The notes below the pieces were generated by a model. It saw nothing but the letters and a program-made list of their open reading frames with translations, was not told where the DNA came from and did no database searches. DNA of 64,000 nt from Bradyrhizobium guangdongense (lineage in GTDB: Bacteria > Pseudomonadota > Alphaproteobacteria > Rhizobiales > Xanthobacteraceae): positions 4,650,001 to 4,714,000 of the forward strand of contig NZ_CP030051.1 in NCBI RefSeq assembly GCF_004114975.1, in the 5' to 3' direction. Positions within the stretch are counted from its first letter, which is position 1, and every line of letters starts with the position of its first letter. Shown here piece by piece: positions 57,866-64,000 of this stretch. Position numbers and translations under genes: made by a program.

Positions 57866-58255
57866 TCAGACGCGCCGACGCTTGCGCGGACGGCAACCGT
57901 TGTGCGGGATCGTGGTCACGTCGCGGATCGAGGTGACGGTGAAGCCAGCGGCCTGGAGCGCGCGGAGCGCCGACTCACGGCCCGAACCGGGACCAGCGAC
58001 CTCAACTTCCAGCGTGCGCATGCCGTGTTCCTGCGCCTTCTTCGAAACGTCTTCGGCGGCGACCTGCGCGGCGTACGGGGTCGACTTGCGCGAGCCCTTG
58101 AAGCCCATCGTGCCGGCGGAGGACCAGGCAATCGTGTTGCCCTGCGCGTCGGTGATGGTGATGGTCGTGTTGTTGAACGACGAGTTCACATGCGCGACGC
58201 CCGAGGCGATGTTCTTGCGCTCACGACGACGAACGCGGGTGGCTTCCTTGCCCAT
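57866..58255 (-). CDS. rpsK: 30S ribosomal protein S11
   Basis: A 129-residue small-subunit platform protein. [60 protein letters not shown] and CRPRKRRRV at the C-terminus are the S11 pattern. It binds 16S rRNA near the Shine-Dalgarno helix. It lies 122 bases after S13 in the same transcript. Confidence 0.98.
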
Positions 58256-58377
58256 AGACTACCTTTCCTGGAGATCTCAAACGCCGCCGTAATGCCAGCG
58301 GCTACACCTGTGGAACGAAAAGCGCGTGGCGAACGGGTTGCCCCTCTTCGCCACACGCCGCGACTGGAATAGAAAAC

Positions 58378-58746
58378 TTACTTCTTCTTGCCGGCGATGG
58401 CCTTGGCCGGGCCCTTGCGCGTACGCGCATTGGTGTGGGTGCGCTGGCCGCGCACCGGCAGACCGCGACGATGACGCAGGCCACGATAGCAGCCGAGGTC
58501 CATCAGACGCTTGATGTTGATGCCGACTTCGCGACGCAGATCGCCCTCGACGAGATAGTCGCGGTCGATGACTTCGCGGATCTGGAGCACTTCAGCGTCG
58601 CTGAGCTGATTGACGCGACGATCCTCGGGGATCTTCACCTTTTCGAGGATCTCACCAGCAATCTTCTGGCCGATGCCATGGATGTACTGGAGCGCGATCA
58701 GCACGCGCTTGTTGGTCGGAATGTTCACGCCGGCAATACGGGCCAC
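58378..58746 (-). CDS. rpsM: 30S ribosomal protein S13
   Basis: A 122-residue head protein that contacts tRNA and the large subunit. [57 protein letters not shown] and the basic C-terminal tail ([13 protein letters not shown]) are present. A good promoter lies upstream at 58898-58927, so this gene probably begins a transcript of its own as well as belonging to the long operon. Confidence 0.98.
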
Positions 58747-58897
58747 GGCCTTCTCTCCTGTTGCCGATCCCTCGTCAGGAATCGGGCTTTAAGTGCTTAT
58801 GTTTCTCGGGCAGGTGTTCACAAACGCGAACACGACGCCCACCCCTGGTCTTCCTGGGGCCCGGCATCGTTTGAAACTATCCGACTTGGATGCGGGC

Positions 58898-58927
58898 TTA
58901 TTAGGGGATTCAGGGGGCTTTCGTCAA
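58898..58927 (-). promoter_or_regulatory. Sigma70-type promoter upstream of rpsM
   Basis: On the minus strand TTGACG (58927-58922) and TAATAA (58903-58898) are 18 bases apart, in the 187-base gap between adk and rpsM. It begins 6 bases after the adk stop codon and would drive S13-S11-RpoA-L17 separately. Confidence 0.55.
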
Positions 58928-58933
58928 CCGCTG

Positions 58934-59800
58934 CTAGCGCTTAGCTCGCTTTTTCGTGACCTTTTTTGCTGCCTTCTTGGCACCTTTCTTGACGGCCTTC
59001 TTAGCGGTCTTTTTGGCACCCTTCTTGACGGCTTTCTTGGCAGCCTTTTTGGGGCCCTTCACGGCCTTTTTGGCTGATTTTGCCGGTTTTGCAGCCTTTT
59101 TGGCCACTTTTGCCGGCTTTTTGGCTGCCTTGACCTTTTTGGCCGCCTTCTTGGCTGGCGCCGCCTTGGCCGCGCTGCGGGCGTGGGTCTTACGATGGGT
59201 CTTTGGCTCGACCGCGCCCAGCGCCAGGAGCTGGCGGTGGATGGCACGGGTGACCTCGTCGATCGCCATCATGCCGTCGATGGTCGAGAGCTTCCGCCGC
59301 TCGGAATAGTAGTGAATCAGCGGTTCCGTCTGGCTGCGGTAGCTGGCAAGCCGCTTGGTCAGGACCTCCGGGGTGTCGTCAAGCCGGACTTCCTCCCCGC
59401 GCTCCCGCATCTGGGCGACGCGAGTCTCCACACGACTCAGCAGCGCGCTCTCGTTGACACGCAGCTCGATCACCGCATCGAGCTTCATGTGCTTGTGCTT
59501 CAGCAGCTCGTCGAGCGCCTCGGCCTGCGGCACGGTGCGCGGGAAGCCGTCCAGGATGAAGCCGTGCTTCGCGTCCGGCTGGTCGATCCGGTCCGAGATG
59601 ATTCCGACCACGACGTCGTCGGGGACGAGACCACCGCTGGCCATGATCTCCTTGGCCTTCAACCCGACCGGCGTTCCGGCAGCGACCGCCGCGCGCAACA
59701 TCTCGCCGGTCGAGAGCTGGACGATACCATAGCGCTGCACCAGCAGCTGCGCCTGGGTCCCCTTGCCCGACCCCGGCGGTCCCAGAAGTATAATTCTCAT
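58934..59800 (-). CDS. adk: Adenylate kinase with histone-H1-like C-terminal tail
   Basis: A 288-residue protein. Residues 1-196 are a short-type adenylate kinase that converts ATP and AMP to two ADP: P-loop [10 protein letters not shown] at 7-16, [18 protein letters not shown], and [18 protein letters not shown]. Unlike usual adenylate kinases, about 90 further residues follow, nearly all Lys, Ala, Val and Pro in [13 protein letters not shown] and [15 protein letters not shown] units, ending KKRAKR. The tail resembles the free H1-like protein at 9231-9527 and could bind DNA or RNA. The start has an ATGA overlap with the stop of the second secY gene. Confidence 0.95.
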
Positions 59801-60999
59801 CGGCGTACGCCCCCCGGATTGGTGAGCGATACGTCGCGCACCTGTGTTTGAAGATCGAGAATGGTGCAGACCACAATCAGCGCCGCACCACCATTCATAC
59901 TATAGGGCAGCCCGTTTCCGTAAACCAAGAGTGCTTCCGGAATCATCTGCACCATCGTCAGGTAGACGGCTCCGACGAGGGTCGTCAATGACACGACGCG
60001 ATCGAGATGATCCGCGGTGGCCTCCCCCGGCGCGATGCCGGGAATCGCGCCGCCCTGCCCGGCAAGCTGTTCGGCGACCCGTTCGGGATCAACCACAAAG
60101 GATGTGTAGACGAACGCCAGCACGAACACCGCGACCGAGATCACGATCAGATGGGCAGGACGCCCGACCTGGAGGGATTGGTAGAGCGCTTCGATCCAGG
60201 GGACGCCCCCAAGCAGGAAGCCTGCAGCCGACAGCGGCAGGAAGATGAACCAGGGCGCCACCGTGGTCGGTATCAGGAAGCCGGCGTTGTTCAACTTGAC
60301 CGGGAGCAGCGCCGTCCGCGCCGGCAGGATCCTTGCCCCCACGCTACGCTCGGCAAAGGCGATTCCGATGTTTCGCCGCGCGCTTTCGACAACGACGATC
60401 AGGACGACCGCAGCGACCCAGAACACGATGTGGAACAGCACGAGATCGCTGGAGACCGAACCGCTTCGAACCAGCTCCCGCACGTTTGACACATCAGACG
60501 GCAGCGCCACGAGGAAGCCGACGCTCAGCACCAGCGCCAGCCCGTTACCGATGCCGTGGCGGGTAATCTGCTCGCTGAGGAAGATCAGGGCGAACACGCC
60601 GCCGACCATGGTCGCGGTCGCCGTGACCACGAACCAGCCCTCGGGGTCGCTAACCAGATTCGGCACGTCCTTGAGCGCCGAGGCGATGCCGTAGGCTTGG
60701 AACGCGGCGAGGACCAAGGTCAGGGCGAGCGTAAGGCGGGCTATGCTTCGCCGGCCTGCCTCGCCCGATCGCTCCAGCGCGTTCAAGCCGCGCCAGACCA
60801 CCGACAACAGCCGGATCAAGATGGCAGCGCTGAGATAGGGAACGAGACCGAGCGCAAACAGCGAGAGACGAGCAACGACCCCGGCGGTGAGTGGCAGGGT
60901 CGAGGTCAGCACGCCCGGCACGGGAACATGCGTGCCTAGCCTGAAAAGGAGCAGCGCGCCAATCGTGAAACCGATCCGGCGCGCAAGCTCCCCATTCAT
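59797..60999 (-). CDS. Second, divergent SecY-family translocon protein
   Basis: A 400-residue ten-helix SecY homologue next to the normal secY. Helix pattern and blocks are conserved ([61 protein letters not shown]). Differences: the plug region between PVPGV and [11 protein letters not shown] is about 16 residues shorter than in SecY-1, so the plug helix is absent; the C5-loop Arg of PGIRPGE is Ala323 here (PGIAPGE); the N-terminal 22 residues of SecY-1 are missing. It overlaps secY-1 and adk by 4 bases (ATGA) at each end. No SecA2 or SecE partner is seen. All helices are intact, so it is not an obvious pseudogene. Confidence 0.93.
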
Positions 61000-62327
61000 C
61001 TACGGCGGCCCCTCAGCTTCGACTTCCGGATCAGGCCTTCGTACTGATGAGCGAGCAGATAGCCCTGAACCTGCGCCACCGTATCCATGGTCACGCTGAC
61101 CACGATCAGGAGCGACGTCCCGCCAAAGTAGAACGGCACCGAGGCGTAGGAAATCAGAATTTCCGGGATCAAGCAGACGATCGCCAGGTAAATTGCGCCG
61201 AGCACGGTGATCCGCGACAGCACGTAGTCGATATATTCCGCGGTGCGCTCGCCGGGACGGATGCCCGGGATGAAGCCGCCATGCTTCTTCAGATTGTCCG
61301 CCGTCTCGGTCGGGTTGAACACGATCGCGGTGTAGAAGAAGGCGAAGAACACGATCAGCGCGAGATAGAGGATCAGGAACAGCGGGCGGCCATGGCCGAG
61401 CTGGGTGGTGATCCACTGGAACCATTCCGGCCCCTTGCCGGCGTTGAAATTCGCGACCGTCGTCGGCAGCAGCAAGAGCGAGGACGCGAAGATCGGCGGG
61501 ATCACGCCTGAGGTGTTGAGCTTGAGCGGCAGATGCGAGGACTGGCCCTCGAACATCTTGTTGCCGACCTGACGCTTCGGATACTGGATCAGCAGCCGGC
61601 GCTGGGCGCGTTCCATGAACACGATGAAAGCGATCACGGCGACCGCCATCACGATCACGATCAGGATCAGGCCGGTCGACATCGCACCCTGGCGGCCGAG
61701 CTCGAGCATATTGGCGAGCGCTGCGGGAAGTTCAGCGACGATGCCGGACAGAATGATCAGCGAGATGCCGTTGCCGATGCCGCGCGAGGTGATCTGCTCG
61801 CCCAGCCACATCAGGAACATGGTGCCGCCGGTCAGCGTGATCGCGGTGGAGAGGCGGAAGAACATGCCGGGATCGCTGACGACGTTGCCGGCGCCTTCGA
61901 GGCCAACGGCGATGCCGTAGGACTGGAACGCAGCCAGGATCACCGTGAGGTAGCGGGTGTACTGGTTCAGCGTCTTGCGACCCGCCTCACCTTCCTTCTT
62001 CAGCGCCTCGAGCTGCGGCGAGACGGTGGTGAGCAGCTGGATGATGATCGAGGCCGAGATGTACGGCATGATGTTCAGCGCGAAGATCGCCATGCGGTGG
62101 ATGCCGCCGCCGGCGAACATGTTGAACATGCCGAGAATGCCGCCCGCCTGCGACCTGAACACCTGCTCCCAGATGTTGGGATCGATGCCGGGCAGCGGGA
62201 TGTAGGTCCCGAGCCGATAAACGAGCAGCGCACCCAGCGTGAACCAGATGCGCTTCTTCAGTTCGTCGGCCTTGGCAAACGCGCCGAAATTGAGGTTGGC
62301 TGCCAGTTGTTCCGCTGCTGAGGCCAT
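60996..62327 (-). CDS. secY: Preprotein translocase subunit SecY
   Basis: A 443-residue, ten-helix channel protein of the Sec translocon. The plug region GILGMFNMFAGGGIHRMAIF, SASIIIQLL, GITSRGIGNGISLIILSG-like block (EQITSRGIGNGISLIIL), PLKLNTSGVIPPIFASSLLL and Arg357 in GGFIPGIRPGERT (the Arg needed for SecA function in E. coli SecY) are all present. It lies between L15 and the second secY, as in other spc operons for its upstream part. The stop overlaps the start of the second secY by 4 bases. Confidence 0.98.
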   Translation of the reverse strand: MASAAEQLAANLNFGAFAKADELKKRIWFTLGALLVYRLGTYIPLPGIDPNIWEQVFRSQAGGILGMFNMFAGGGIHRMAIFALNIMPYISASIIIQLLTTVSPQLEALKKEGEAGRKTLNQYTRYLTVILAAFQSYGIAVGLEGAGNVVSDPGMFFRLSTAITLTGGTMFLMWLGEQITSRGIGNGISLIILSGIVAELPAALANMLELGRQGAMSTGLILIVIVMAVAVIAFIVFMERAQRRLLIQYPKRQVGNKMFEGQSSHLPLKLNTSGVIPPIFASSLLLLPTTVANFNAGKGPEWFQWITTQLGHGRPLFLILYLALIVFFAFFYTAIVFNPTETADNLKKHGGFIPGIRPGERTAEYIDYVLSRITVLGAIYLAIVCLIPEILISYASVPFYFGGTSLLIVVSVTMDTVAQVQGYLLAHQYEGLIRKSKLRGRRR

Positions 62328-62443
62328 ATTGGACTTTCTCCCGCCGCCTTTTGCGCCGTCATACCCGCGGCCGGGCTATTGGGCGGACGCCGGACATTAT
62401 CTGGTGCTCGGCTTCGATAAGTCCATCGTCCCGCATGCGTAAA

Positions 62444-62465
62444 GGCCCGCGAGGCGCGGGCCAAT
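62444..62465 (-). terminator. Intra-operon hairpin between rplO and secY
   Basis: GGCCCGCG at 62444-62451 pairs with CGCGGGCC at 62455-62462 around AGG. On the minus strand it is followed by TTTACGC. It lies 13 bases after the L15 stop codon in an unusually long 148-base gap. It could attenuate transcription or mark mRNA processing before secY. Confidence 0.5.
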
Positions 62466-62475
62466 GACGCAGTTG

Positions 62476-62961
62476 TTACGCCGCCTCGCCTTCTTCCTTG
62501 GCAGGGGCGAGGATCTTCACCGAACCGCCGGCCTTCTCGACCGCTTCGATCGCGGACTTGGTGGCGCCGTGCACTTCGATGTTCAGCTTGGCCTTGAGTT
62601 CGCCGCGGCCAAGCAGCCGCAGGCCGGCCTTGGCGCGGCGCAGCACGCCGGCCTTCACCAGCGCCTCGACGTTCACGACACTGCCGGTGTCGAGCTTCTT
62701 GGCATCGACGGCGTCCTGGAGACGGTCGAGATTGATCTCGGCGTACTCGACGCGGAAGATGTTGTTGAAGCCGCGCTTGGGCAGACGGCGATGCATCGGC
62801 ATCTGGCCGCCTTCAAAACCCTTGATGCGCACGCCCGAACGCGCGGTCTGGCCCTTGCCGCCGCGGCCGGACTGCTTGCCCTTGCCCGAACCGATGCCAC
62901 GGCCGACGCGCATACGCTTCTTGCGCGAGCCGGCGTTGTCGGCGATATCGCTGAGCTTCAT
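62476..62961 (-). CDS. rplO: 50S ribosomal protein L15
   Basis: A 161-residue large-subunit protein. [57 protein letters not shown] and the C-terminal [20 protein letters not shown] match L15. The gene is in its usual place before secY. Confidence 0.98.
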
Positions 62962-63035
62962 CGCCCTGCTCCTTGTTTCTTGCGCATGATCTTCACCGAA
63001 AGCCGGATCCGGTCTTCGGGATCATGCGCCGCTTC

Positions 63036-63230
63036 TTACTTCTCGCCGACGATACGGACGAGATGGTGAACCTTCTCGATCATGCCGCGGACAGCCGGAG
63101 TATCCGGCAGCTCGCTGGTGCGGCCGATCTTGTTGAGCTTGAGCCCGATCAGCGTCGAACGCTGCGAGTGATGGCGGCGGATCGCGCTGCCGGTCTGCTC
63201 GAGCTTGATCGTCTTTACGGCCTTGGCCAT
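63036..63230 (-). CDS. rpmD: 50S ribosomal protein L30
   Basis: A 64-residue protein. [40 protein letters not shown] and [17 protein letters not shown] match L30 of alphaproteobacteria. It lies between S5 and L15, 25 bases after S5. Confidence 0.97.
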
Positions 63231-63255
63231 CGTGGTCTACTCCGAAAAGCGTTGG

Positions 63256-63852
63256 TTAGTCCGCAGCCGCCTCGGCATCGCCGCCGACGCGACGACCCTG
63301 GAGGGTGGACACCTTGATGTTGCGGCGCGCCGCGACCGAACGCGGGCTGTCCTGATGCTTGAGCGCATCGAAGGTCGCGCGAACCATGTTGTACGGGTTC
63401 GAGGAGCCGATCGACTTCGCCACCACGTCCTGGACGCCAAGCGTCTCGAACACGGCGCGCATCGGACCACCGGCGATGATGCCCGTACCGGCCGGAGCTG
63501 CACGCAGGTAGACACGACCCGCACCGTGACGGCCGGCGATGTCGTGATGCAAGGTGCGGCCCTCGCGCAGCGACACGCGGGTCAGGTTGCGCTTGGCGGA
63601 CTCGGTGGCCTTGCGGATCGCCTCAGGAACTTCGCGCGCCTTGCCGTGACCGAAGCCGGCGCGGCCCTTCTGATCCCCGATCACGACCAGCGCTGCGAAA
63701 CCGAAGCGCTTGCCGCCCTTGACGACCTTGGCGACGCGGTTGATGTGCACGAGCTTGTCGACGAACTCGCTGTCGCGCTCCTCGCGCTCCCTGCGTTCAC
63801 GTCCGCCGCCGCCGCGTTGATCGCGTCCACCACGTTGTTCGCGTTCTGCCAT
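63256..63852 (-). CDS. rpsE: 30S ribosomal protein S5
   Basis: A 198-residue small-subunit protein. The N-terminal 30 residues are Arg/Glu/Gly-rich ([20 protein letters not shown]). Then come the dsRNA-binding-like domain ([20 protein letters not shown]), [20 protein letters not shown] and [20 protein letters not shown] of S5, ending with a short acidic tail. It helps decode and supports proofreading. It is 44 bases after L18. Confidence 0.98.
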
Positions 63853-63896
63853 TTTTCCAATCCTTCAGAGGCTTGCGCCTCAATCCTCAAATTCTG

Positions 63897-64000
63897 TTAG
63901 AAGCTCAGCCCGCTCTCACGCGCTGCGTCGGCGAGAGCCTTGACGCGCCCGTGGTAGAGGTAGCTGCCGCGATCGAACACGACTTCCTTGACGCCCTTCT
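63897..64000 (-). CDS. rplR: 50S ribosomal protein L18, C-terminal part
   Basis: The right edge of the window cuts this gene. The 34 visible C-terminal codons read [20 protein letters not shown] then [18 protein letters not shown] sequence (the Arg-Glu-Ser/Gly-Gly-Leu end of L18). The 5S-binding protein precedes S5 as in other spc operons. Confidence 0.93.

Follow-up and report, generated by a model that had tools for sequence, protein, structure and literature searches.

The spc operon of Bradyrhizobium guangdongense carries two tandem genes for SecY-type proteins. The product of the second, here termed SecY2, appears from its sequence to be a SecY fold without the coupling arginine, the plug or the C-terminal tail, and as such a new variant of SecY. 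We tentatively, and with somewhat less than even confidence, regard it as an old SecY paralogue whose fold has become uncoupled from SecA and the ribosome and which may act as a passive partner of SecYEG or as a decoy rather than as an export channel. The role of passive partner or decoy is arrived at by exclusion.

The secY-secY2-adk locus

The window, i.e., the whole stretch of 64,000 nucleotides that was analyzed, contains secY (60996–62327), secY2 (59797–60999) and adk (58934–59800), all on the minus strand. The secY gene encodes a protein of 443 amino acids with Arg357 in the motif PGIRPGE and a complete plug, and secY2 a tandem paralogue of 400 amino acids that is devoid of the plug, the Arg357 equivalent and the C-terminal tail. 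The third gene, which we take to be adk on the basis of its sequence and operon position, encodes an adenylate kinase whose C-terminal extension is rich in Lys and Ala. An earlier reading of the sequence alone had described a tandem secY pair overlapping by 4 bases, and exactly this arrangement was recovered: the stop codon of secY and the start codon of secY2 share an ATGA (60996–60999, minus strand), and a second ATGA overlap of 4 bases joins the secY2 stop to the adk start (59797–59800, minus strand). The ATGA between secY and secY2 is present at 21 of 27 intact Bradyrhizobium loci. From their sequences, the neighbors of secY2 are presumably secY, rplO, adk and rpsM, and secY2 is thus not linked to secA2 or asp genes.

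In the whole genome (8.44 Mb, two contigs), secY and secY2 are the only genes whose products match PF00344 at an E value of 0.001. With 392.5 bits for SecY and 213 bits for SecY2, both exceed the cut-off of 32.2, and SecY2 passes as a member of the SecY superfamily with its ten-helix fold. It falls below the cut-off of the TIGR00967 equivalog family (215.2 bits, cut-off 253.6), for which SecY reaches 433.2 bits. SecY2 and the neighboring SecY are 42% identical. The nearest named relatives of SecY2 among the matches listed stem from B. guangdongense (98% identity) and B. campsiandrae (92%). In databases, SecY2 proteins bear the name "preprotein translocase subunit SecY", and among the matches listed in the openly licensed literature no description of a Bradyrhizobium secY2 or a tandem second secY was found.

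Features kept and lost in SecY2

Ala323 of SecY2 and Arg357 of SecY both align with E. coli R357, just as had been proposed; the alanine codon, the counterpart of the RPG-motif arginine by alignment, lies at 60031–60033 (minus strand). While all 35 SecY proteins used have arginine here (those of G155 and G171, which are truncated, were not included), alanine occupies the position in 25 of the 27 intact Bradyrhizobium SecY2 copies and is therefore not fixed. Two SecY2 copies from other genera have glutamate. The plug had been estimated to be about 16 residues shorter, in agreement with the 16-residue gap in the HMMER alignment; the shortened stretch comprises codons 30–45 (60865–60912, minus strand), with 16 residues fewer than in E. 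coli SecY. In an AlphaFold2 model built from 144 sequences (a version from 61 sequences was poor, pLDDT 55.9), a six-residue helix (residues 39–44) is predicted, which does not amount to a plug helix TM2a. The shorter N-terminus was likewise borne out (18 residues).

Two further features, absent from the sequence-only reading, are the loss of the cytosolic C-terminal tail (E. coli residues 428–437), which is gapped in 30 of 30 SecY2 proteins, and the exchange of the pore-ring residue I278 for threonine, seen in every one of the 27 intact copies from Bradyrhizobium. The pore ring is otherwise mostly hydrophobic. S89A, I191L, Q241R, N338D, V412T and M414L are fixed in 30 of 30 SecY2 proteins and differ from the SecY majority; residues that are invariant in SecY2 and SecY alike are numerous in TM1, TM5, TM7 and C5.

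Distribution

A total of 146 Bradyrhizobium genomes was searched, and the secY-adk interval was read at 137 loci. The other nine genomes yielded no match (G041, G097, G100, G101), were unlisted (G065), ended with the contig (G073), or contained partial (G075, G091) or doubled (G137) loci. Two Bradyrhizobium genomes from outside the 146 have a remnant (G306) and an intact copy (G662). At the 137 loci, secY2 is intact in 27 cases, frameshifted in one (G112), reduced to a remnant in 55 and gone in 54. Because an intact frame is found at 27 of 137 loci, a chance origin can be excluded. Remnant or gone was first assigned by interval length and then by protein-to-DNA comparison, in which 53 of the 55 remnants match SecY2, G025 and G045 being classified by length alone. 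Remnant intervals measure 262–290 bases in 50 of 55 cases, and the short intervals (n = 54) 68–128 bases. When the last 60 bases were removed, a SecY2 match persisted in 51 of 55 remnants versus none of the 54 short intervals, five of which (116–128 bases) may carry a shorter trace of secY2 as judged by eye. Although 42 of 55 remnants retain 45 or more open codons ahead of the adk overlap, these lie partly in shifted frames, and a coding mini-gene is not supported.

Of 198 genomes searched in the family, 187 belong to other genera, and ten of these gave two matches: G155, G171 and G275 have an intact tandem copy, G303 a remnant, G308 and G315 a second canonical-like copy elsewhere, and the remaining ones split or partial genes; weaker secY2 remnants would be missed by this search. 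At order level (397 genomes), 18 genomes outside the family have two PF00344 matches. Sixteen were re-searched (G390 and G523 were left out), and the second copy lies elsewhere in ten, whereas in the other six the SecY2-search query found the canonical copy alone and the second place was not seen. That most related genomes would have a single secY had been named as a sign of a recent non-functional duplication. Intact copies are indeed confined to 27 of the 137 Bradyrhizobium loci, but dN/dS and the trees (below) speak against such a duplication, and the outcome is mixed. We propose that secY2 is dispensable, in keeping with its patchy distribution.

Age of the duplication and order of losses

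SecY2 from four genera is separated from the canonical SecY proteins used by a branch with 100/100 support, albeit with a program warning of long branches meeting there. Together with the identity of 42% to the neighboring SecY, the trees rule out a recent duplication, which had been raised as a possible explanation, and show an old duplicate. The searches speak against an origin from mobile elements: blastn against plasmids gave six matches, none covering 80% of the query, and tblastn against phages gave 14 matches, all below 60% identity, with two of the five listed being Salmonella genome contigs.

Three protein searches with 120 listed matches each (360 in total) returned 108 canonical-like proteins and 252 others, of which P0250, a chimera of SecY pieces, was left out. 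Most of the 251 listed SecY2-like proteins are full length. Alanine is found at position 357 in 133 proteins, glutamate in 100, arginine in one and other residues in 16, with one gap; the stretch equivalent to E. coli residues 45–75 has 28–31 residues in 19 and 7–22 in 231; and the tail (428–441) has six residues or fewer in 249 of 251. In a tree of 113 rows (P0013, P0058, P0246, P0247, P0248 and P0250 excluded), the deepest SecY2 branches have a stretch of plug length but Glu or Ala at position 357. On the same tree, the plug state requires six changes, gain and loss not being distinguished, and five of them are forced by well-supported branches. Most simply, then, the arginine would have been lost first and the plug later, more than once. 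P0194, with Arg357 and a stretch of plug length, has either reverted or preserved the older state.

Selection on SecY2

In Nei-Gojobori comparisons of the 27 Bradyrhizobium copies, dN/dS ranges from 0.16 to 0.51 (median 0.34, 351 pairs), below the value near 1 that had been named as a sign of decay, and all 27 frames are open although the copies differ at synonymous sites by a median of 0.44. The open frame and dN/dS rule out a pseudogene in B. guangdongense. The median values of the neighbors are 0.058 for SecY, about one-sixth of that for SecY2, and 0.066 for adk. Intact SecY2 is under relaxed purifying selection.

The relaxation is unevenly distributed. In SecY, pN/pS is 0.016 for cytosolic loops, 0.074 for helices and 0.155 for periplasmic parts; in SecY2, the values are 0.384, 0.368 and 0.605, the region lists being hand-drawn and slightly different for the two proteins. 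From SecY to SecY2, relaxation is 24-fold on the motor-facing side and five- and fourfold elsewhere. The special constraint on the cytosolic loops has gone, which indicates that SecY2 probably no longer works with SecA and ribosomes as SecY does. We take this to be the strongest sign of such uncoupling. The C5 loop, with a dN/dS of 0.23, is relaxed but not free, and something may still dock at the cytosolic loops of SecY2. The plug stretch and the periplasmic loops are the fastest-varying parts. Regional dN/dS is below 1 throughout except for the 3′ tail (1.46), where the adk leader holds dS down.

The 3′ end of secY2 as adk leader

The 3′ end of secY2 contains a hairpin, GGTGCGCG-ACGTAT-CGCTCACC (59821–59842, minus strand), with a G-run between it and the start codon of adk. 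The consensus GGTGYGCG-loop-CGCYCACC plus G-run precedes adk with or without secY2; its GGTG/CACC ends are present at 140 of 142 loci, and a stricter pattern occurs once in the B. guangdongense genome. In intact copies this DNA encodes a conserved 12-residue SecY2 tail with a mean dS of 0.088. Since the hairpin is kept regardless of secY2, conservation of the tail is no evidence for the protein.

A putative, weak promoter-like pair, CTTGGT-N18-CTATAG, is located at 59900–59929 (minus strand). In other species the remnants retain CTTGGC-N18-CTATGAT, and the two elements, chosen after the alignment had been viewed, have mean pairwise identities of 0.993 and 0.958 in 50 remnants. The pair and the hairpin region (0.967) are thereby better conserved than the spacer (0.803), the stretch between (0.866) and the fourfold sites of secY (0.823) and of adk (0.739, 49 genomes). 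A search of positions 58000–64000 found no known RNA family at the adk leader; it gave a below-threshold Alpha_RBS match before rpsM and an sRNA match at an E value of 0.17.

Exchange of secY2 alleles

For the same 27 genomes, the SecY2, secY and adk trees reject one another, and imposing the secY tree on the SecY2 data costs 1007 lnL units. Recombination is general at the locus, given that even the adk and secY trees are incompatible. G067 and G046 share 97.0% (secY) and 95.9% (adk) DNA identity and only 61.8% SecY2 protein identity, and G000 and G018 share 94.7%, 96.1% and 61.5% for secY, adk and SecY2. Such divergent alleles between near-identical flanking genes suggest exchange. Mean dS of SecY2 is low at both ends (0.38 in TM1, 0.34 in TM9–TM10) and reaches about 0.65–1.1 over most of the central part. 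The overall pattern suggests that SecY2 alleles are exchanged by recombination through homologous flanks. On the secY plus adk tree of 142 loci, intact copies and remnants are intermingled, and well-supported branches force the full-length state (in which G112 was included) to change 14 times or more; this tree stems from the same locus and so is not an independent species tree.

Partners and production

Each of 48 genomes encodes one SecA of 953–980 amino acids and one SecE above the cut-off, and no second SecE over the cut-off was found in these 48 genomes. In B. guangdongense, the gene for SecA (C1:616350) is distant from secY2 (C1:4709800). A second, shorter SecA-like protein (frames of 666–696 amino acids) occurs in nine of the 48 genomes. 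It was considered as a partner of SecY2 and rejected, as it is present in six of 30 genomes with intact secY2 and three of 18 without, so that no correlation is seen.

Codon adaptation is 0.454 for SecY2, 0.688 for SecY and 0.488 for adk; 10 of 57 window genes, which were crudely called, lie below SecY2. Equal production of SecY2 and SecY, which the overlapping genes had been taken to suggest, is not supported by this low codon adaptation, and the ATGA is not universal at intact loci.

Comparison with known SecY proteins

SecY2 resembles canonical SecY (PF00344; TIGR00967) in its ten-helix fold, operon neighborhood and 42% identity and differs from it in lacking the RPG arginine, the plug and the C-terminal tail and in scoring below the equivalog cut-off. 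The accessory Sec SecY2 of streptococci and other Gram-positive bacteria is likewise a second SecY in addition to the canonical one of the genome. The Bradyrhizobium protein, however, is far below the cut-offs of both accessory profiles (103.1 of 249.6 bits for TIGR02920, 116.8 of 353 for NF009082), and its gene resides in the spc operon and not beside secA2/asp genes. The streptococcal complex, according to PMC5076819, has its own SecE- and SecG-like partners. Orphan SecY-like proteins from other Hyphomicrobiales families (L183–L192) have a SecY-like N-terminal half and, as SecY2, no evident plug or PGIRPGE motif, but are unlinked to secY, apparently lack the C5 loop and are far more diverged.

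Parallels to the changes in SecY2 are provided by laboratory mutants of E. coli, R357E and plug deletions. The same kinds of change occur naturally in SecY2; the E. coli mutants, however, are engineered alleles of the sole SecY, whereas SecY2 is a second gene beside an intact one. According to PMC6021171, R357E in E. coli leaves SecA binding undisrupted, but the plug stays closed and the channel fails to open. PMC4826270 describes R357 as conserved without exception, and in all three domains, and as a candidate switch for coupling; R357 is not mentioned in PMC4907695. According to PMC3689939, plug-deleted SecY conducts ions, SecY opened by the ribosome has a conductance similar to that of a plug-deletion mutant, and ribosome gating survives R357E, which counts against a need for R357 in ribosome binding.

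Possible functions of SecY2

In the reading that we tentatively prefer, SecY2 would have kept the ten-helix fold and been released from its motors. As both the tail and the arginine through which SecA is coupled to gating are lost, neither SecA- nor ribosome-driven translocation would be expected. Modest amounts would be synthesized from the secY-adk mRNA, SecE would be drawn from the common pool, and beside SecYEG, SecY2 could serve as a passive partner or decoy, for example by taking a place in SecY oligomers (both a functional monomer and a dimer have been reported for SecYEG; PMC8082313) or by capturing agents that approach SecY from the periplasmic side. Recombination via the conserved flanks would swap the secY2 alleles. 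Against motor uncoupling speaks the mostly hydrophobic pore ring, as a working channel needs it.

The main rival, which we consider unlikely, is slow decay: an old duplicate whose function is minor or outdated would be disappearing in one lineage after another, with intact copies surviving through their co-translation with secY and adk and through renewal by recombination. This would account for the predominance of remnant (55) and empty (54) loci over intact ones (27, plus one frameshifted) among the 137, the roughly sixfold higher median dN/dS as compared with SecY, the low codon adaptation and a 3′ end held at the DNA level before adk and not for the protein. It fits poorly with dN/dS values of 0.51 or lower in 351 of 351 pairs, the persistence of 27 open frames despite a median synonymous difference of 0.44, the 251 mostly full-length SecY2-like proteins among 360 listed matches, and the SecY2-specific fixed residues.

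Quite unlikely in our view is a constitutively gated, SecA-independent channel that would open easily for want of a plug and insert simple membrane proteins via its lateral gate together with SecE or YidC. The retained fold and helices, the largely preserved pore ring, the invariant TM5 and TM7 residues common to SecY2 and SecY and the reported ion conduction of plug-deleted SecY (PMC3689939) are compatible with such a channel. Against it, the cytosolic loops that receive ribosome and SecA are specifically relaxed, a permanently open pore would be leaky, loss of the gene is frequent, and several deep-branching members combine a stretch of plug length with Glu357, a residue with which the E. 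coli channel stays shut.

It is improbable that SecY2 is a decoy that diversifies in response to a toxin or other periplasmic agent that uses SecY, with allele swaps altering sensitivity. The divergent SecY2 of G067 and G046 (61.8% identity) between secY (97.0%) and adk (95.9%) and the fast variation of plug stretch and periplasmic loops would agree with this, as would the resistance to two CDI toxins that SecY mutations confer on E. coli (PMC7858069). However, the main such mutation described there (S281F) lies in TM7 and not in a periplasmic loop, periplasmic loops vary fastest in canonical SecY too (0.155 versus 0.016 for cytosolic loops), and no region of SecY2 apart from the 3′ tail (1.46) exceeds a dN/dS of 1.

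A true accessory SecA-driven translocon like the Gram-positive SecA2-SecY2 system is highly improbable despite the homology to SecY and the short SecA-like protein in 9 of 48 genomes, as that protein does not follow secY2 (6 of 30 versus 3 of 18 genomes), the scores are below both accessory SecY2 cut-offs, and the coupling arginine and the tail are lost. The original proposal of an accessory translocon survives as regards a real SecY paralogue without plug and Arg357. A translocon is less likely than a motor-uncoupled fold because the cytosolic loops are relaxed and because, in the 48 genomes, a single SecE over the cut-off was found in each and the second SecA does not follow the presence of secY2.

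Implications

The role of the arginine in coupling motor and channel has so far been derived from laboratory mutants, and SecY2 offers a natural test. In this natural family, 250 of 251 listed members lack Arg357 and plug-region lengths are graded, with an intact SecY in the same cell, so that the mutual role of arginine and plug and the use of the SecY fold outside export become testable. Caution is warranted with the database label "preprotein translocase subunit SecY", as it also covers SecY2 proteins. Doubtful as it is, SecY2 might even be a natural non-translocating SecY that serves as a decoy or shield, its divergent, swapped alleles changing the response to agents that block SecY or use it for entry. 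If so, SecY2 would be kept for a role in the membrane and periplasm other than export, and this within an operon that ranks among the most conserved in the genome.

SecA- and SecY-like proteins encoded elsewhere

A second, shorter SecA-like protein, with an open frame of 666-696 aa, is encoded in nine of the 48 genomes compared (G011, G014, G056, G084, G092, G095, G117, G131 and G138), and across these 48 its presence does not track that of SecY2, the tandem SecY paralogue encoded between secY and adk. Degenerate SecY-like proteins with frames of 367-487 aa occur in other Hyphomicrobiales families, where their genes are unlinked (loci L183-L192); a plug is not evident in them and the C5 PGIRPGE loop is apparently absent. 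What we take to be a purB-like gene adjoins the SecY-like locus in two of the seven cases for which neighbors were viewed.

The secY-adk interval and the adk leader

Shortened traces of secY2 in the secY-adk interval are near-uniform in length (262-290 bases in 50 Bradyrhizobium genomes, e.g., loci L072 and L088), and in these 50 genomes a promoter-like pair within them is more conserved than the surrounding sequence. At least 45 open codons upstream of adk persist in 42 of the 55 remnants.

The adk gene itself carries a long Lys/Ala-rich C-terminal extension (58934-59240, minus strand), which is likewise present in loci L004 and L044, and 5' of rpsM (58714-58789, minus strand) the Rfam model RF00140, for the alpha operon ribosome binding site, scores 33.6 bits, below its threshold of 38. 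A hairpin with a G-run precedes adk (59821-59842, minus strand); when its GGTG/CACC ends were compared across 142 loci, 140 had them, and the hairpin proved to be retained both with and without secY2. It matched no Rfam family in a search over 58000-64000 of the window, and a stricter pattern occurs only once in this genome. The hairpin with its G-run is possibly an unlisted adk leader element.
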